Source: Geodermatophilus sp. DSM 44513 (GTDB lineage: Bacteria > Actinomycetota > Actinomycetes > Mycobacteriales > Geodermatophilaceae). Taken from it: a stretch of 64,000 bases of DNA. The notes below the pieces were generated by a model. It had not been told where the DNA came from. It saw nothing but the letters and a program-made list of their open reading frames with translations, and made no database searches. Made by a program: the position numbers and the translations under genes. The stretch is from positions 310,001 through 374,000 of the forward strand of contig NZ_CP135963.1 of assembly GCF_032460525.1 (NCBI RefSeq). Direction: 5' to 3'. This document shows, piece by piece, positions 5,190 to 48,405 of the stretch. The number at the start of each line of letters is the position of its first letter. Position 1 is the first letter of the stretch.

Positions 5190-6113
5190 ATGCCGCAGAT
5201 CCCCGGGACCGACCTGACCGTCAGTGACCTGTGCCTGGGCGCCAACGTGTTCGGCTGGACGGCGGACGAGCCGACGTCCGCCGCCGTGCTGGACCGCTAC
5301 CTGGACGCGACGCCGAGCACCCGGGCGCCCTTCGTCGACACCGCGGAGATGTACGGCGAGGGCCGCTCCGAGCAGATCCTCGGCGCCTGGATGGCCGAGC
5401 GGGGGGTGCGCGACCGCGTGGTGGTGGCCACCAAGGCCTCGCCGGGGCGCAAGGAGCACCCGCTGTCCGCCCCGGAGATCCGGGCGGCCGCCGAGCGGTC
5501 GCTGCGCAACCTGCGGACCGACCGGATCGACCTGTACTACGCGCACTACGACGACACCTCCACGCCGCTGGAGGAGACGCTGCGCGCCTTCGACGAGCTG
5601 GTGCAGGCGGGCAAGGTCCGCCACGTCGCGGCGTCGAACTACTCCCCGGAGCGGCTCACCGAGGCGCTGGACACCTCCGAGCGGCTGGGGCTGGCCCGCT
5701 ACGTGGCACTGCAGCCGCACTACAACCTCGTGGAGCGGGCGGTCTACGAGGACGGGCTGCGTGACGTCGTGGCCGGGCACGAGCTGGGCGTGCTGCCCTA
5801 CTTCGCGCTGGCCAAGGGCTTCCTGACCGGCAAGTACCGGGCCGGGGAGCAGGTCGACTCGCCGCGGGCCGAGGGTGCCTCGGCCTACGTGGGGGAGCGC
5901 GGCGACCGGGTGCTGACCGCGCTGGGTGCGGTCGCCGAGGAGCACGGGGTGCCGGTGGCGGCGGTGGCGCTGCGCTGGCTGGCCGACCGGCCGACCGTCG
6001 TCGCGCCGATCGCCAGCGCCCGCTCGGTGGAGCAGCTGGCCGACCTGCTGCCGATGCAGGACCTCGTGCTCACCGACGAGCAGACGCAGGCCCTGGACGC
6101 CGCCTCCGCCTAG
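5190..6113 (+). CDS. Aldo/keto reductase
   Basis: This 307-residue NADPH-dependent aldo/keto reductase has the family (alpha/beta)8-barrel pattern. The catalytic tetrad can be placed at D and Y of FVDTAEMYGEG, K of VVVATKAS and H of LYYAHYDD. The signature VRHVAASNYSPERL follows, and SARSVEQL near the C-terminus is the usual NADPH-contact loop. It starts at ATG 5190 just after GGGAGG. Its TAG stop overlaps the stop of the convergent DUF1059 gene by three bases. The substrate is unknown. Confidence 0.92.
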   Translation: MPQIPGTDLTVSDLCLGANVFGWTADEPTSAAVLDRYLDATPSTRAPFVDTAEMYGEGRSEQILGAWMAERGVRDRVVVATKASPGRKEHPLSAPEIRAAAERSLRNLRTDRIDLYYAHYDDTSTPLEETLRAFDELVQAGKVRHVAASNYSPERLTEALDTSERLGLARYVALQPHYNLVERAVYEDGLRDVVAGHELGVLPYFALAKGFLTGKYRAGEQVDSPRAEGASAYVGERGDRVLTALGAVAEEHGVPVAAVALRWLADRPTVVAPIASARSVEQLADLLPMQDLVLTDEQTQALDAASA

Positions 6114-6283
6114 ACGGTCCTGATGTGCGGGCGGACGCGGACGTCGGACTCGGTGCCCGGCGCGGTCGCGCCGTGCGACTCGACGGCGTGCCGGCGGGTC
6201 TGCACGAGGACGCCCTGCTCGTCGGCGGCGGTGAACGTGGCACCGCAGCCCGGGATGATGTCGCCGCAGGCAAAGCTCTTCAC
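6110..6283 (-). CDS. Small DUF1059-like protein
   Basis: This short gene encodes 57 residues starting VKSFACGDIIPGCGATFTA and ending DVRVRPHIRTV. The MKSF-x-C-G-D...C start, the LVQTRRHAVESHG stretch and the final RPHI match the DUF1059 family of small proteins of unknown function. The start is GTG 6283 with AGGAGA upstream, almost the same leader as the HU gene. The last bases overlap the aldo/keto reductase stop on the other strand. Two cysteines (at positions 6 and 13) could bind a metal, but that is a guess. Confidence 0.72.
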   Translation of the reverse strand: MKSFACGDIIPGCGATFTAADEQGVLVQTRRHAVESHGATAPGTESDVRVRPHIRTV

Positions 6284-6340
6284 AGGTGTCTCCTGGGGTT
6301 CGGACTGCCGGCCAGCGGGCTCGAGCCGGGGGTCGGGGGG

Positions 6341-7435
6341 TCAGCGGCGGGCGGCCGCGGTGGCGAGGTCCTCGACCCGCAGCAGGCCGACGACGGCGCC
6401 GGTGGGGTCGGTGCAGACCACCGGGTCGAACCGGTGGCCCGGCGCGCGGGCCAGCGCCCGGTGCAGGACGTCGGTGACGCCGTCGGAGGCGTGCACGCGC
6501 AGCGAGACCGGCGCGGTGTGCGGCTCCGCCGTCCGCGGGTCGGTCAGCCACAGGCCCACGGGCGCACCGTCCTCGGTGACCAGCACCACCGGCGGGACCC
6601 CGGGCAGCGGCTCGCCGAAGTCGGACTGGCGCACCGGCCGCAGCAGGCCGGCCACGCTGTCGGTGCGCCGGGCGCGGGTGACGTGCGTGCGCACCAGCGC
6701 GGCGACGTCGGCGGGCAGGGGCGCGAAGTCCGGCGCGGGGCGGCCCAGCAGCCAGCCCTGGGCCAGCGGCACCCCGATGCGGGCCAGGGCGGCCAGCTCC
6801 CCGGGGGTCTCGACGCCCTCGGCCAGCAGCCAGGCGTCGATGCGGCCGGCGAACTCGCCGACCATCTCGGTGAGGGCGGTGCGCACCGGGTCGGTGTCCA
6901 GCCCGCTCACCAGGGAGCGGTCGAGCTTGACCAGCTGCGGGCGCACGCCGGCCATCGCCTGCAGCCCCGAGTACCCCGAACCGGTGTCGTCCAGGGCCAC
7001 GAGGGCGCCGCGGCCCCGCAGGACCGCCGTCTGCCGGCGCAGCTCGTCGAGGTCGTCGATGCGGGTGTGCTCGGTGAGCTCGACGACGACGCGCCGCAGG
7101 TCCGGCCGGGTGGCCAGCGCCTCCTGGACGGGGCCGCTGCCGAGCAGGTGGGGGCTGACGTTGACGGACAGGAAGGTGTCCGGAGGCAGCGACGGGACGG
7201 CGGCCAGCGCCTTGACCAGCGCCAGCGCCTCCAACTGGGCGGCCAGCCCGCCCTCGGCGGCGGCGGCGAACCACACCTCGGGCCCGGCGGTGCCCGGGAA
7301 GCGGGCGAGGGCCTCGTAGCCGACGACGGTGGCCGCGGCGAGGTCGACGATCGGCTGGAACACCATCGTCAGGTCGTCCGGGTCGGCGAGCAGCGGGCGG
7401 CAGTCGAGCAGACTGCTCGCGCGGGTCACCGTCAT
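6341..7435 (-). CDS. EAL-domain protein with C-terminal CBS pair
   Basis: This 364-residue protein has an EAL phosphodiesterase domain (about residues 20-235) followed by a CBS-like region (about 245-364). EAL lies at 41-43 in VVGYEALARF; the metal/catalytic residues are recognisable in LSVNVSP, VVELTEH, ALDDTGSGYSGL, VKLDRSL and LAEGVETPGEL, so cyclic-di-GMP hydrolysis is plausible. The loop-6 motif reads DDTGS instead of the common DDFGT. CBS pairs usually bind adenosine nucleotides. The start is ATG 7435 (GATGGGGG upstream). It is divergent from a SpoIIE-type phosphatase, with 183 bases between them. Confidence 0.88.
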   Translation of the reverse strand: MTVTRASSLLDCRPLLADPDDLTMVFQPIVDLAAATVVGYEALARFPGTAGPEVWFAAAAEGGLAAQLEALALVKALAAVPSLPPDTFLSVNVSPHLLGSGPVQEALATRPDLRRVVVELTEHTRIDDLDELRRQTAVLRGRGALVALDDTGSGYSGLQAMAGVRPQLVKLDRSLVSGLDTDPVRTALTEMVGEFAGRIDAWLLAEGVETPGELAALARIGVPLAQGWLLGRPAPDFAPLPADVAALVRTHVTRARRTDSVAGLLRPVRQSDFGEPLPGVPPVVLVTEDGAPVGLWLTDPRTAEPHTAPVSLRVHASDGVTDVLHRALARAPGHRFDPVVCTDPTGAVVGLLRVEDLATAAARR

Positions 7436-24981: not shown

Positions 24982-25068
24982 GGAGGGCTCGCCTAGCGGC
25001 CGATGGCGGCGGTCTTGAAAACCGCTATGGGGTCACACCCATCGTGGGTTCGAATCCCACGCCCTCCG
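24982..25068 (+). tRNA. tRNA-Ser(TGA)
   Basis: The 87-base sequence folds as a class II tRNA. The acceptor stem is GGAGGGC pairing with GCCCTCC, followed by discriminator G. The anticodon loop is CTTGAAA with anticodon TGA inside a GCGGT/ACCGC stem. A long variable arm follows, then a T-arm GTGGG-TTCGAAT-CCCAC. CCA is not encoded. An integrase relic pointing toward it lies immediately downstream, so it was probably used as an attachment site. Confidence 0.95.
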
Positions 25069-25144
25069 CGTCTGACCAGCGGTTTGCGTCCCCGGGGAAA
25101 CCCCGGCGAGGGCCGCCCGGCGTCGCCACCCACTCGCGTGCCCG

Positions 25145-42314: not shown

Positions 42315-42863
42315 GTGCAGGAGGGGCGGGCGTCCCGGTGGCGGCGCCTCCGGGACCTGCCGCTCCTCGGTGTCGTGGTCGCCGGGGGAGCGGCGACGAG
42401 CCTGGTCACCCTGCCCGCGCTGCTGCTGCTCCACCTGCTCACCGGGTGGCCCCGTGATCCCGACTGGGTCGGGTTGGCGGTCCAGCAGTTCGTGGTCGGG
42501 TCCGTCGCCACGTACTTCCCAGCGGCGAGTGCCCGCCGCAGTGGCGGAGAGGCGGCCCGGCGCTCCGCGCAGCTGGCCCTGCAGCGACGGCGCGTGCCGA
42601 GGGACGGCGACCCGGCCGTCCTGCGCCGGGCGCTCGTCGAGCAGCGCCGGGGTGCCGTGCTGGCCCGCCGGTGGGTGCTGGCCACCGCGCCGGTGTGCGC
42701 ACTCGGGATGTTCTGGCTGGCCGCGGCCCAGGGCGGGGTGGAGCTCTGGGCGGCCGGTGCGTGCCTGACCGCCGTGGCGGTGCTCGCACCCGTCGCGCTG
42801 CGACACCGGGCGGAACTGGTCGACGAGCTCCTCGAGCACCTCGACGACCCGCCGCAGGGGTGA
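42315..42863 (+). CDS. Hypothetical membrane protein
   Basis: I do not recognise this 182-residue protein. It has four predicted hydrophobic segments in two pairs (LLGVVVAGGAATSLVTLPAL; VGLAVQQFVVGSVATYFPA; WVLATAPVCALGMFWLAAA; AGACLTAVAVLAPVAL). A basic amphipathic loop rich in Arg (AARRSAQLALQRRRVPRDGD) separates the pairs, and an acidic tail ends DELLEHLDDPPQG. It is divergent from the MBL operon and lies 107 bases before the formate dehydrogenase operon on the same strand. Confidence 0.7.
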   Translation: MQEGRASRWRRLRDLPLLGVVVAGGAATSLVTLPALLLLHLLTGWPRDPDWVGLAVQQFVVGSVATYFPAASARRSGGEAARRSAQLALQRRRVPRDGDPAVLRRALVEQRRGAVLARRWVLATAPVCALGMFWLAAAQGGVELWAAGACLTAVAVLAPVALRHRAELVDELLEHLDDPPQG

Positions 42864-42970
42864 GATCAGGGCCCCGCGGGTCACGGATCGGACACGGGAA
42901 CGGCCGGTTGCCCCAGGTGGCGGCGGGTCCCGGGGAGCCGACGCGGCGGGGGAGTGGCACAGTTGGCGCC

Positions 42971-45900
42971 GTGAAGACCTGGCTCGAAGCCTGGCCGGTG
43001 TTCCGGCAGCTGACCGGCCCCGACCCCCTGGGTCGTGGCCACGCCGCGCGCAGCAGGGGGACGGAGAACGTGGTGAGCCGCACGGCCACCGCCGACCGGG
43101 TGGTGCAGAGCGTCTGCCCGTTCTGCTCGGTGGGCTGCGGCCAGCGGATCTACGTCAAGGACGAGCAGATCATCCAGATCGAGGGCGACCCGGACTCGCC
43201 GGTCAGCCGCGGCCGGCTGTGCCCCAAGGGCAGCGCCAGCAAGCAGCTGGTCACCAGCCCGACCCGGGTCACCACGGTCAAGTACCGCCGTCCGTACGGG
43301 ACGGAGTGGGAGGACCTGGACCTGGACACGGCGATGGAGATGATCGCCGACCGCGTCCTGGACGCCCGCCGGAAGTACTGGCAGGACGAGGACGGCGGCA
43401 AGCGGGTCAACCGCACCATGGGGATAGCGAGCCTCGGAGGGGCAGCCCTCGACAACGAGGAGAACTACCTCATGAAGAAGCTCTACAGCGCCATGGGCGC
43501 GATCCAGATCGAGAACCAGGCGCGCATATAGCACTCCGCCACGGTGCCCGGTCTGGGCGCCACGTTCGGTCGTGGCGGTGCCACGAACTCCCAGCAAGAC
43601 CTGGTGAACTCCGACTGCATCGTCATCGAGGGTTCCAACATGGCCGAGTGTCACCCGGTCGCCTTCCAGTGGGTGACCGAGGCCAAGGCCCGCGGCGCGA
43701 AGGTCGTGCACATCGACCCGCGGTTCACCCGGACCAGCGCGATCGCCGACCTGCACGTGCCGCTGCGCGCGGGCAGCGACATCGCCTTCCTCGGCGGGTT
43801 GATCAACTTCGTCCTGGGCAACGAGCTGTACTTCCGCGACTACGTCGTCGCCTACACCAACGCGGCCGCGCTGGTGCAGGAGCGCTTCCGCGACGCCGAG
43901 GACCTCGACGGCCTGTTCTCCGGCTTCGACCCGGAGTCGAACACCTACGACCAGGCCAGCTGGCAGTACGAGCTGGCGGAGGGCCCCCGGGACGGCGTCG
44001 CGGAGGACGACCCGGCCGGGGCCGACCGGCAGGAGGAGCTCTCCCAGGCCCACTCGGTCAAGCAGGCCGACCAGGCGCAGACCTCCGGCTCCGGCGGGCC
44101 ACCGCTGCACGGCAAGCCCAAGCGCGACGAGACGCTGCAGCACCCGCGCAGCGTCTTCCAGATCCTCAAGCGGCACTTCGCCCGGTACACCCCGGAGAAG
44201 GTCTCCGAGGTCTGCGGCATCGAGCCGGAGGTGTTCCTCAAGGTCGCCGAGTGGGTCACCGCCAACAGCGGCCGCGACCGGACGACGGCGTGGGTGTACT
44301 CGGTCGGCTGGACGCAGCACACCGTCGGCGCGCAGTACATCCGCACCGCGGCGATCCTGCAGGCGCTGCTGGGCAACATGGGCCGCCCCGGCGGCGGGAT
44401 CCTCGCGCTGCGCGGGCACGCCTCCATCCAGGGCAGCACCGACATCCCGACGCTGTTCAACCTGCTCCCGGGCTACCTGGCCATGCCGCACGCCGCGCAG
44501 CACGGGTCGCTGGACGACTACTGCGCCGACGCGGCCGGCACCGTGGGGTTCTGGGGCAACAAGCGGGCCTACATGGTCAGCCTGCTCAAGGCCTGGTGGG
44601 GCGACGCCGCGACGCCGGAGAACGACTTCGCCTTCGACTACATGCCCAAGATCAACGGCGACCACAGCTCGTACCGCACGGTCGCGGACATGATCCAGGG
44701 CAAGGTCGGCGGCTACTTCCTGGTGGGGGAGAACCCCACCGTGGGGCACGCCAACGGGCGGATGCAGCGCTTCGGCCTGGCCAACCTGGAGTGGCTCGTC
44801 GTCCGCGACCTGCAGATGATCGAGTCGGCGACCTTCTGGAAGGAGGGCCCGGAGATCGAGACCGGTGAGATGGTCACCGACCAGATCGCCACCGAGGTCT
44901 TCTTCATGCCGGCCGCCAGCCACGCGGAGAAGGACGGCACCTTCACCCAGACCCAGCGGCTGCTGCAGTGGCGGCACAAGGCGGTCGAGCCGCCGGCCGA
45001 CGCCCGCAGCGACCTGTGGTTCTACTACCACCTGGGCCGCATCCTGCGCGACCGGCTCAAGGACTCCACCGACCCGCGGGACCGCCCGCTGCTCGACCTC
45101 ACCTGGGACTACCCGCTCGAGGGCGAGACGCAGGACCCGAGTGCCGCGGCGGTGCTGCGGGAGATCAACGGCGTCGGCCCGGACGGTCGCGCGGTCTCCG
45201 GCTACCTGGAGCTCAAGGACGACGGCTCGACGTCCTCGGGCTGCTGGATCTACTCCGGCGTCTACGCCGACGAGGTCAACCAGGCCGCCCGGCGCAAGCC
45301 CGGTCGCGAGCAGGGTCCGGTCGCTGCGGAGTGGGGCTGGGCGTGGCCGTACAACCGGCGGATCCTCTACAACCGCGCCTCGGCCGACCCGGACGGCAAG
45401 CCGTGGAGCGAGCGCAAGAAGTACGTGTGGTGGGACGCCGACGCCGGCCGGTGGGTCTCCACCGGGGACAACCCCGACTTCGAGGCCACCAAGCCGCCGA
45501 GCTACGAGCCGCCGCCGGGCGCCAAGGCGCAGGACGCGTTGTCCGGCCGGGACCCGTTCGTCATGCAGGGCGACGGCAAGGCGTGGCTGTTCGCGCCCAA
45601 GGGCGTCACCGACGGTCCGCTGCCGACGCACTACGAGCCGGCCGAGTCCCCGGTGAAGAACGCGCTGTACGACGGCGTGCAGTCCAACCCGACCACGGAG
45701 CACGTCAAGGGGCCGTGGAACCGGGAGCACGGGCCGACGTCCGACGTCTTCCCGTACGTGTTCACCACCTACCGGCTGACCGAGCACCACACCGCCGGTG
45801 GGATGAGCCGCACGCTGCCCTACCTGTCGGAGCTGCAGCCGGAGTTCTTCGTCGAGGTCAGCCCGCAGCTGGCCGAGGAGCGCGGGCTGGTCAACGCCGG

Positions 45901-46246
45901 GTGGGCGACGCTGGTCACCGCGCGGTCGGCGATCGAGGCGCGGGTGCTGGTCACCGAGCGGATGCGGCCCATCCGCACCGCCAGCGGCGTGGTGCACCAG
46001 ATCGGCGTCCCGTACCACTGGGGTGAGCGGGGCATCTCCACCGGCGACTCGGCCAACGACCTGCTGCCGGTGGTCATGGACCCGAACACCCACATCCAGG
46101 AGAGCAAGGCCGCGACCTGCGACATCCGCCCCGGCCGCCGGCCGCGGGGGCCCGGACTGGTGACCTTCCTCGAGGAGTACCGGCAGCGCGCCGGCCTCGA
46201 GTCGGGGCTGGTGCCGGTGGGTGCCCGCGGGACGGTCGAGGGATGA
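42971..46246 (+). CDS. fdhA: Formate dehydrogenase catalytic subunit, selenoprotein with UAG-encoded Sec187
   Basis: This 1091-residue Mo/W-bis-MGD enzyme oxidises formate to CO2. The N-terminal [4Fe-4S] ligands are C49-x2-C52-x3-C56 (CPFCSVGC) and C84 (GRLCPKGS). Reading is interrupted by an in-frame TAG at 43529-43531: ENQARI-[TAG]-HSATVPGLGATFGRGG. FdnG and FdhF have selenocysteine then His at exactly this site, so the TAG encodes Sec187, which would ligate the metal; the frame continues unbroken to 46246. A SECIS-like hairpin follows. No twin-arginine signal is visible, so it probably faces the cytoplasm. Ordinary gene prediction would split it into 42971-43531 and 43544-46246. GTG 42971 has CACAGT seven bases upstream; there is no ribosome-binding site. 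Confidence 0.92.
43529..43578 (+). promoter_or_regulatory. Sec codon (TAG) plus SECIS-like hairpin
   Basis: TAG is at 43529-43531. The hairpin GGTGCCC (43543-43549) / GGGCGCC (43555-43561), with one U-G wobble, presents the apical loop GGTCT (43550-43554). Exactly 18 bases separate the TAG from the loop, as in E. coli fdhF, whose SECIS loop is also GGUCU. An outer stem CCGCCAC (43536-43542) / GTGGCGG (43572-43578) can extend it. This would recruit the SelB-GTP-tRNA-Sec complex. Confidence 0.82.
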
Positions 46247-46271: not shown

Positions 46272-47342
46272 GTGACCACGGTCAGCTCGGCCAGTCCCGG
46301 GCTGTCCGGGGACGGGCGCTCCAAGAACCGGCTCTTCGGGCCGCTGCCGGACGTGCAGGAGGAGGCCGGCTACGACGCCGACCACCCGGCACGGGTCGGC
46401 TTCTTCACCGACACCTCGGTGTGCATCGGCTGCAAGGCCTGCGAGGTGGCGTGCAAGGAGTGGAACCTGCTGCCGATGGACGACGCGCACGGCACGCGCG
46501 ACGTCATCGGGCTGTCCGGCATGTCCTACGACAACACCGGCCAGCTGGGTGCCAACAGCTGGCGGCACGTGGCCTTCATCGAGCAGAGCCGCAGCGTGGA
46601 CCTGCCGATGCCGTCCTTCCCGCCGGCGCCGGACGCCACCTCCCGCCAGGACGCAGGAGACGCCCCGGACGACACGGCGGTGGGCGACAGCGTGACGAGC
46701 GCGATGACCAGCGTGCTCAACGCCGAGTCGCTGTCCCAGTTCGACCCGCAGACCGGGCACTCCGGTGACCGGGAGATCCGCTGGCTGATGAGCTCGGACG
46801 TGTGCAAGCACTGCACGCACGCCGGGTGCCTGGACGTCTGCCCGACCGGGGCGCTGTTCCGCACCGAGTTCGGCACCGTCGTCGTCCAGCAGGACATCTG
46901 CAACGGCTGCGGCTACTGCGTGCCGTCCTGCCCGTACGGGGTCATCGAGCAGCGCAAGGGCGACGGCCGGGTCTTCAAGTGCACGCTGTGCTACGACCGG
47001 CTGACCGACGGGCTGCAGCCGGCGTGCGCGACCGCCTGCCCGACCCAGTCGATCCAGTTCGGCAACCTCGACGAGCTGCAGGCCCGCGCCGACGCGCGCC
47101 TGGCCACGCTGAAGTCGCAGGGGGTGGAGACCGCCCGGCTCTACGGCCGGGACGAGGACGACGGCGTCGGCGGTGCCGGGGCGTTCTTCCTGCTGCTCGA
47201 CGAGCCGGAGGTCTACGGGCTGCCGCCGGACCCGGTGGTGACCACGCGCGACCTGCCGGCCATGTGGAAGTCCGCCGGGGCGGCCGCGGTGATGATCGTC
47301 GGGGTGGCGGTCTCCGCCATCCTCGGCTCGCGGAGGAGCTGA
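46272..47342 (+). CDS. fdhB: Formate dehydrogenase iron-sulphur (beta) subunit
   Basis: This 356-residue electron-transfer subunit has four [4Fe-4S] motifs: CIGCKACEVACKEW, CKHCTHAGCLDVCP, CNGCGYCVPSCP and CTLCYDR...CATACP. It passes electrons from the catalytic subunit toward the membrane subunit. A C-terminal hydrophobic helix (SAGAAAVMIVGVAVSAILG) may anchor it, as in FdnH. An insertion of about 60 residues (SVDLPMPSFPPAPD to SLSQFDPQTGH) separates the first two clusters, typical of the actinobacterial form. GTG 46272 follows GAGAGAGGAA, 25 bases after fdhA. Confidence 0.92.
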   Translation: MTTVSSASPGLSGDGRSKNRLFGPLPDVQEEAGYDADHPARVGFFTDTSVCIGCKACEVACKEWNLLPMDDAHGTRDVIGLSGMSYDNTGQLGANSWRHVAFIEQSRSVDLPMPSFPPAPDATSRQDAGDAPDDTAVGDSVTSAMTSVLNAESLSQFDPQTGHSGDREIRWLMSSDVCKHCTHAGCLDVCPTGALFRTEFGTVVVQQDICNGCGYCVPSCPYGVIEQRKGDGRVFKCTLCYDRLTDGLQPACATACPTQSIQFGNLDELQARADARLATLKSQGVETARLYGRDEDDGVGGAGAFFLLLDEPEVYGLPPDPVVTTRDLPAMWKSAGAAAVMIVGVAVSAILGSRRS

Positions 47343-47343
47343 C

Positions 47344-48405
47344 GTGACGGAGGGCATCGCGACGCCGGGGGCCGGCTGGCGGCGGGCGGACGGGCCACCG
47401 GCGGCGAAGCGGGAGAAGCGCCGCCGCCGGCGGGGCGGGGGACGCCCCGGCGGCGAGGTGGCGATGGTCGAGGAGGCCGAGTTCACCTCCTACTACGGCC
47501 GGCCGATCATCAAGCCGCCGGTGTGGAAGACGCCGGACGTGCCGCTGTACCTGTTCCTCGGTGGCGCCGCCGGGTCGGCGTCCGTGCTGGGCGCGCTGGC
47601 CGACGTGACCGACCGGCCCGCGCTGACCCGCAACGCCCGCTACCTCTCCGGTGGTGCGGCGCTGGCGTCGGTGGTCGCCCTGGTGCACGACCTGGGCCGG
47701 CCCGAGCGGTTCCTGCACATGCTGCGGGTGTTCAAGCCGACGTCCCCGCTGTCGGTGGGCTCCTACATCCTGGCGCCGTTCAGCGCCGCGGCCAGCGCGA
47801 CGGCGGCGGTGGAGCTGCTGGGCTGGTTCCCGCGGCTGAAGCGGTTCGGTGGGGTGGTCGCGGCGCTGTTCGGCGCTCCGCTGGCCACCTACACGGGGGT
47901 GCTGTTCGCCGACACCGCCGTCCCGGCGTGGCACGAGGCGTACAAGGAGCTGCCGTTCGTGTTCGGTGCCTCCGGGATGGCCGCCGGTGGCGGGATCACC
48001 ATGGCGCTGACCCCGGTCGCGCAGGCCGGGCCCTGCCGGAAGATGGCGGTCACCGGTGCGGTGATCGAGCTGGCCACCCTGCACCGGGTGGAGAACGGCA
48101 TGGGCATCGTCAGCGAGCCCTACCACCTGGGCAAGGCCGGGCGGTTCATGCGGGCGGCCCGGGCCTGCACCGCGGCCGGTGCGGCGCTCACCGTGGTGGC
48201 CGGACGGCGGCGTGCCGGCGCGGTCGTCGCGGGCAGCCTGCTGGGTGCGGGGTCGTTACTCACCCGCTTCGGCGTGTTCGAGGCCGGCATGGCCAGCGCC
48301 CGGGACCCGAAGTACACGGTCATCCCCCAGCGCGAGCGGCTGGCCGCGCGCGCGGCCGGCGACAAGGTCGCGCAGAACGGGCACGCCTCGACGATCACCC
48401 GCTGA
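47344..48405 (+). CDS. NrfD/PsrC-type membrane quinone subunit of formate dehydrogenase
   Basis: This 353-residue integral membrane protein has a basic N-terminal tail (KREKRRRRRGGG), then YYGRPIIKPPVWKTPDVPLY followed by about eight helices in the NrfD pattern (HDLGRPERFLHMLRVFKPTS between helices 2 and 3, and WHEAYKELPFVFGASG). NrfD subunits exchange electrons with menaquinone, replacing the cytochrome b (FdnI) of E. coli, and carry no haem. GTG 47344 is one base after fdhB's stop, with GGAGGAG upstream. It completes the operon. Confidence 0.9.
   Translation: MTEGIATPGAGWRRADGPPAAKREKRRRRRGGGRPGGEVAMVEEAEFTSYYGRPIIKPPVWKTPDVPLYLFLGGAAGSASVLGALADVTDRPALTRNARYLSGGAALASVVALVHDLGRPERFLHMLRVFKPTSPLSVGSYILAPFSAAASATAAVELLGWFPRLKRFGGVVAALFGAPLATYTGVLFADTAVPAWHEAYKELPFVFGASGMAAGGGITMALTPVAQAGPCRKMAVTGAVIELATLHRVENGMGIVSEPYHLGKAGRFMRAARACTAAGAALTVVAGRRRAGAVVAGSLLGAGSLLTRFGVFEAGMASARDPKYTVIPQRERLAARAAGDKVAQNGHASTITR

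Follow-up and report, generated by a model that had tools for sequence, protein, structure and literature searches.

How is a UAG codon in the midst of a formate dehydrogenase gene read? In the window (the whole stretch of 64,000 nucleotides that was analyzed), fdhA (positions 42971 to 46246, forward strand) would encode the catalytic subunit of formate dehydrogenase (FDH), likely a selenoprotein, and it carries an in-frame UAG at codon 187 (43529 to 43531, forward strand), between ENQARI and HSATVPGL, where the alignments place selenocysteine (Sec) or Cys. We consider it very probable (about 97%) from sequence comparison that this UAG is read as Sec by a tRNA-Sec with anticodon CUA encoded between selD and selA-selB, because residue 187 aligns with Sec or Cys, because the CUA tRNA-Sec is present together with selA, selB and selD, and because the CUA tRNA-Sec and the TAG-bearing genes co-occur across Geodermatophilaceae.

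The fdhA frame and the hairpin behind its UAG

With TAG taken as Sec, the fdhA frame runs for 1091 residues from a GTG at 42971 to a TGA ending at 46246, and U187 is the only step that departs from translation table 11. No other internal stop was found in the 1091 codons, in line with the single internal TAG described in the initial annotation. The GTG is a putative start, supported by relatives that align from residue 1. The product matches NCBIfam NF041513 (formate_DH_Act) over its whole length with 1926 bits (cut-off 1400) and TIGR01553 (FDH-N alpha) with 960 bits (cut-off 814), and the Pfam domains PF04879, PF00384 and PF01568 are above their cut-offs. In the four printed alignments to solved structures, residue 187 stands opposite X (Sec) in 1h0h_A, 1kqf_A and 30gj_A and opposite Cys in the sequence of 9qm0_A, with His directly after this position in all four; U or C was what the initial annotation had expected of homologs here. 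The next gene is fdhB (46272 to 47342, forward strand), which encodes a 4Fe-4S electron-transfer subunit with PF13247 and other Fer4 domains over cut-off; its best NCBIfam profile, TIGR01582 (FDH-beta), gives 182.4 bits and stays under the cut-off of 334.7. It is followed by a fdhC-like gene for an NrfD-type membrane subunit (47344 to 48405, forward strand; PF03916 NrfD, 53.2 bits, cut-off 25.8), for which the NCBIfam profile search gave no match.

To compare selective constraint on the two sides of the TAG, dN and dS were estimated by the Nei-Gojobori method between the window FDH and seven relatives. In all seven comparisons dN is lower than dS both before the TAG (140 codons) and after it (879 to 903 codons). 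Against G. pulveris, for example, dN and dS are 0.016 and 0.089 before the TAG and 0.020 and 0.134 after it, so that their ratio is 0.17 over 140 codons and about 0.15 over 903 codons, respectively. The lower dN on both sides argues that the part of fdhA downstream of the UAG is made and used.

A bacterial SECIS hairpin is predicted 11 bases past the UAG (43543 to 43561, forward strand), in which a 7-bp stem (43543 to 43549 with 43555 to 43561) closes the loop GGUCU (43550 to 43554). The spacing and the loop are the same as in Escherichia coli fdhF, whose GGUCU loop occupies bases 22 to 26, numbered from the start of the codon. The comparative evidence comes from an alignment of 53 genes (29 distinct rows), from which L094 and L095, the most distant of 55, were omitted. 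Paired cells make up 95.1% of this alignment, compared with 87.9% in shuffles and 32 to 58% when the partner strand is slid, and 17 cells carry double changes where 6.1 are expected from shuffles, a number reached by none of 500 shuffles. All of these double changes fall in one pair (18-30); four of the seven pairs are invariant and the outermost pair is unpaired in 9 of the 29 distinct rows. Two of five covariation measures are at shuffle level, namely the count of double-changed pairs (1) and that of further pair types (5 vs. 4.6). The folding energy of the single sequence is not unusual among its shuffles (z = -0.28), and identification of the element by folding energy alone was therefore rejected. 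Thus, a SECIS just after the UAG is predicted from its position and loop, with comparative support mainly from one pair.

The CUA tRNA-Sec and other TAG codons in the genome

We searched the DSM 44513 genome, a single contig of 4,628,844 bases (C1), for the machinery that such a codon would need. The Rfam tRNA-Sec model gave seven matches, and a single one, a selC gene at C1:1413449-1413540 with 64.2 bits, is above the cut-off of 47. It matches the model over its whole length, folds with a long variable arm, has the anticodon CUA in the loop C-U-CUA-A-A and ends in G73-CCA. The gene lies within a sel cluster (C1:1412418-1416806), between selD and the selA-selB pair, and these three genes all exceed their NCBIfam cut-offs (selA, TIGR00474, 415.8 bits against 267.9; selB, TIGR00475, 285.2 against 242.25; selD, TIGR00476, 379.2 against 125). 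ARAGORN labels this tRNA gene tRNA-Pyl, presumably owing to the CUA anticodon; within the window itself, the only tRNA gene that the program reports is a tRNA-Ser (anticodon TGA) at 24982 to 25069.

Four further genes of DSM 44513 have TAG at an expected Sec site. All three UGSC genes carry it at the U of U-G-S-C, and one of eight AhpC-TSA matches carries it in W-U-P-Y-C (C1:150238-150522). In this AhpC-like gene another in-frame TAG lies 30 codons upstream of the first (L222 positions 1447 and 1537, corresponding to C1:150184 and C1:150274), which we take as a putative ordinary stop ahead of a GTG start. None of the five CMD matches contains a stop, the other FDH-like gene has no stop in its matches, and no UGA-coded selenoprotein was seen among the FDH, UGSC, AhpC-TSA and CMD matches. 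Stop usage was sampled in the window and the sel region, where a simple GC3 rule picked out 38 likely genes; 34 of these end in TGA and 4 in TAG (the part of fdhA after the TAG being counted as one gene). UAG thus still looks to be a stop elsewhere, and since it ends 4 of the 38 genes, competition with termination is to be expected.

The mechanism is likely the standard bacterial Sec insertion with its codon shifted to UAG. Following the established bacterial pathway, SerRS would load serine onto the CUA tRNA-Sec, and SelA would then turn the serine into Sec, using selenophosphate supplied by SelD. SelB, by binding the GGUCU-loop hairpin, would deliver Sec-tRNA to the ribosome at the UAG, where release factor 1 would compete with it. 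Some other genes appear to end in UAG, so it would be the hairpin that separates a Sec UAG from a stop UAG. The inserted Sec would coordinate Mo or W at the active site of FDH.

Codon and anticodon across Geodermatophilaceae

To place the UAG among relatives, we collected 58 named FDH loci, of which 54 cover residue 187 (four partial loci that fall short were dropped); the stop at residue 187 was read base by base in these 54 and in the window. The codon is TAG in 37 loci and TGA in 17. Every one of the 37 TAG records has Geodermatophilus, Blastococcus, Goekera or Geodermatophilaceae in its title, and none of the 17 TGA loci has a Geodermatophilaceae title, their records being from Actinoallomurus, Actinomadura, Microtetraspora, Pseudonocardia, Amycolatopsis, Micromonospora, Frankiales and other Actinomycetota, Chloroflexi, Acidobacteriaceae and Competibacteraceae, several of them metagenome-assembled genomes that carry no family name. 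The row nearest to the window is Geodermatophilus pulveris (L039), with 96% identity in FDH. In a tree of the 54 loci and the window, made by a quick method, a single branch (SH-aLRT 100) separates the 38 TAG rows from all others, and several rows outside the TAG group have long branches.

The anticodon was surveyed in 112 genomes of the family at E 1e-8, with stricter filters under which weak matches are lost. A tRNA-Sec match is present in 109 genomes; 110 matches have at least 64 bits and 25 have 49.5 to 52.3 bits. The anticodon is CUA in 102 and UCA in 8 of the 110 strong loci, which are distributed over 108 genomes, 101 with CUA (including G037 with two CUA loci and G059 with CUA and UCA) and seven with UCA alone (G066, G068, G069, G070, G072, G073 and G074). 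The latter represent three genera, known from fragmented assemblies. The four genomes with no strong tRNA-Sec (G067, G071, G097 and G098) are 72 to 82% complete. Two of the 25 weak matches, both in G071, were read and have the anticodon loop CTTGAAA, which reads as that of a serine tRNA. It was also observed that the closing pair of the anticodon stem is T-A in the eight UCA tRNA-Sec genes and C-G in the CUA tRNA-Sec genes, a paired change alongside the anticodon.

Close FDH homologs (E 1e-100) were found in 100 of the 112 genomes, with 131 matches in total, and were scored for the number and kind of stops, not their place, in up to six candidates per genome. All 118 matches that span residue 187 (98 genomes) contain exactly one stop, and this stop is TAG, so the TAG in these genes is not due to chance. 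Of the 13 matches off residue 187, 11 have no stop, one has a TAG and one has two TGA. The last two belong to G079 (contigs C12 and C4; L255 and L256), in which both FDH copies are interrupted near residue 187, and may reflect a frameshift, decay or an assembly error. Two near-full-length FDH genes with one TAG each are carried by G012, G004, G008, G005, G009, G007, G019, G020, G024 and others, pointing to a second UAG-coded FDH paralog in parts of the family. UGSC proteins gave 95 matches, spread over 54 of the 112 genomes; 72 of them have one TAG, 23 lack a stop and none has TGA, and the three UGSC matches in UCA genomes are among the 23. No close FDH at E 1e-100 was found in the three UCA genera (nine genomes), and among their more distant FDH-like matches six span residue 187 with one TGA (again by number and kind, not place). 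In the UCA genome G070, contig C162 (L098 and L108) holds an FDH-like fragment 67% identical over residues 636 to 698 and, beside it, a piece of residues 19 to 112 with a TAG, which may be a fragment or a product of decay.

We also searched 397 genomes of the order with exact anticodon patterns that require an exact T-loop and miss variants. The CUA pattern occurs in 76 genomes, 75 from Geodermatophilaceae plus G230, and the UCA pattern in 135, where the sampled members of Geodermatophilaceae are represented by G059 alone. G230, from another family and 82% complete, has CUA and UCA on the contig pair C194/C119 (L253 and L254) with selA near each tRNA-Sec. The SelA on its CUA contig is 77% identical to that of DSM 44513, whereas that on its UCA contig is only 65% identical to it, and the CUA contig may therefore be a stray Geodermatophilaceae piece. 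Taking the tree and the anticodon survey together, we infer that one switch from UGA/UCA to UAG/CUA within Geodermatophilaceae is the simplest reading.

A stop within a frame may also point to a pseudogene, a sequencing error or a nonsense mutation, and the two FDH copies of G079 do look broken. This is highly improbable for fdhA, which stays open beyond the TAG with dN below dS in all seven comparisons and with no other stop in 1091 codons, which has fdhB and fdhC directly downstream, and whose single TAG recurs in all 118 matches of 98 genomes and is matched by the tRNA-Sec(CUA) and the sel genes; the pseudogene reading was thus rejected. The initial annotation had favored a UAG-coded selenoprotein over a pseudogene and had named a genome lacking tRNA-Sec(CUA), SelA or SelB as evidence to the contrary. 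The search of the genome returned selC(CUA), selD, selA and selB, and together with the intact frame and the constraint on it they lend support to that proposal.

It could further be asked whether UAG is read as another amino acid. Pyrrolysine, to which the ARAGORN label of the CUA tRNA would point, has a negligible probability, since the best match to the PylS profile in the genome reaches 23.1 bits against a cut-off of 178.15, which refutes it in practice; the tRNA gene also fits the tRNA-Sec model from end to end (64.2 bits) and its fold includes a long variable arm, and residue 187 in homologs is Sec, Cys or a TAG/TGA stop codon. Frequent reading as Cys or Ser, which would yield a non-seleno enzyme, could be entertained because Cys occupies the equivalent of residue 187 in 9qm0_A, because charging begins with Ser in the known Sec pathway and because Sec at this residue is deduced from sequence. 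It is nonetheless very improbable when set against selA and selD adjacent to the tRNA gene, the delivery of Sec-tRNA by SelB in the known pathway and the other TAG codons at Sec sites of the UGSC and AhpC-like families. Reading of the fdhA UAG as Sec is the explanation that we keep.

A second tRNA-Sec in G059 and comparison with known systems

G059, of the same genus as the window, encodes two tRNA-Sec, one with UCA (81.8 bits) and one with CUA (65.3 bits). The latter is accompanied by selD, selA and selB in the same arrangement as in DSM 44513, and the FDH and UGSC genes of this genome carry TAG. The UCA gene (L206, contig C17, 1169-1263) lies close to the end of a contig of 69 kb, in which GC is 61 to 68% over the first 6 kb and mostly 70 to 80% further in, and it is flanked by transposase domains (DDE_Tnp_1 at L206:3-515 and IS110 at 6089-6862). 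About 300 bases from it is a CMD/AhpD-like gene (PF02627; L206 1579-2154) in which an in-frame TGA at 1870 stands for the U of CxxU. A search of 68 kb of this contig gave no second selA or selB, and a plasmid search with the island returned 30 records with only short matches (2 to 3% of the query), many of them to IS256 transposase genes. Another gene of the island with no Pfam match (L206 4496-5320, reverse strand) has a frame that extends upstream through an in-frame TGA and may have a plain start site or be a recoded or broken gene. It is conceivable, though rather unlikely, that G059 uses two Sec codons, UAG via CUA and UGA via a UCA tRNA-Sec acquired horizontally on the lower-GC, transposase-flanked island. 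Among the 120 listed of 233 homologs of the CMD/AhpD-like protein, the residue at the TGA site is Trp in 58, Cys in 52, Leu in 1 and unread in 9; since Trp is about as frequent as Cys, a plain nonsense change from a Trp codon would be as good a reading. Were two codons in use, horizontal transfer would be bringing the ancestral Sec codon back into a UAG lineage, and G059 would be a natural example of a genome that has both. No paper title on two Sec codons in one bacterium was found in a search that mostly covered literature outside subscription; what this search gave on Geodermatophilaceae was PMC5330540 and papers citing the 2016 study of Mukai and colleagues.

The switch in Geodermatophilaceae offers a clean natural case of Sec moved between stop codons across a clade, with the change placed within one family. 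Since UGA ends 34 and UAG 4 of the 38 sampled genes, the switch moved Sec away from the stop codon most used among them, which raises the idea that stop usage may have driven it. The case is also a hazard for annotation, as the standard ORF list cuts fdhA in two (42671-43531 and 43544-46246) and ARAGORN gives the tRNA-Sec the wrong name.

Mukai and colleagues reportedly used 75Se labelling in Geodermatophilus and Blastococcus in 2016. UAG-coded Sec in the FDH, UGSC and AhpC proteins of Geodermatophilaceae was reported in 2016-2017, and the fdhA described here is an ortholog of the published case. According to PMC5330540, three Geodermatophilaceae genomes combine a CUA tRNA-Sec with selenoprotein genes that have TAG to match; this tRNA and the FDH and UGSC selenoproteins go back to an earlier report (its reference 56), and the TAG-containing AhpC of Blastococcus saxobsidens was added by that paper itself. 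The statement in the initial annotation that a UAG-reading tRNA-Sec had been reported in Geodermatophilus and Blastococcus is thus right in substance. PMC5133445 likewise gives UAG as a Sec codon in Blastococcus and UGU as one in Aeromonas salmonicida, and the main text of PMC13188914, PMC10778597 and PMC7609411 has no mention of Geodermatophilaceae or Blastococcus. What may be added here are the 112-genome survey, the one-switch tree, the UCA tRNA-Sec in three genera and the presence of CUA and UCA in G059.

Compared with the published UAG-Sec system of Geodermatophilus and Blastococcus, with which it shares the CUA tRNA-Sec and TAG at the Sec site of FDH, UGSC and an AhpC, the present case differs in nothing essential, and what is extended is its coverage (112 genomes, a tree fitting one switch, and the UCA genera). 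It shares the SelA, SelB and SelD pathway with canonical UGA-Sec as in E. coli fdhF, whereas the codon here is UAG and the anticodon CUA. The whole-length match to NF041513 likewise sets it among actinobacterial-type FDH of the formate_DH_Act family, in which the Sec codon is UAG here and UGA in the loci that lack a Geodermatophilaceae title. In A. salmonicida Sec has also moved to another codon, which is a sense codon there and another stop codon here.
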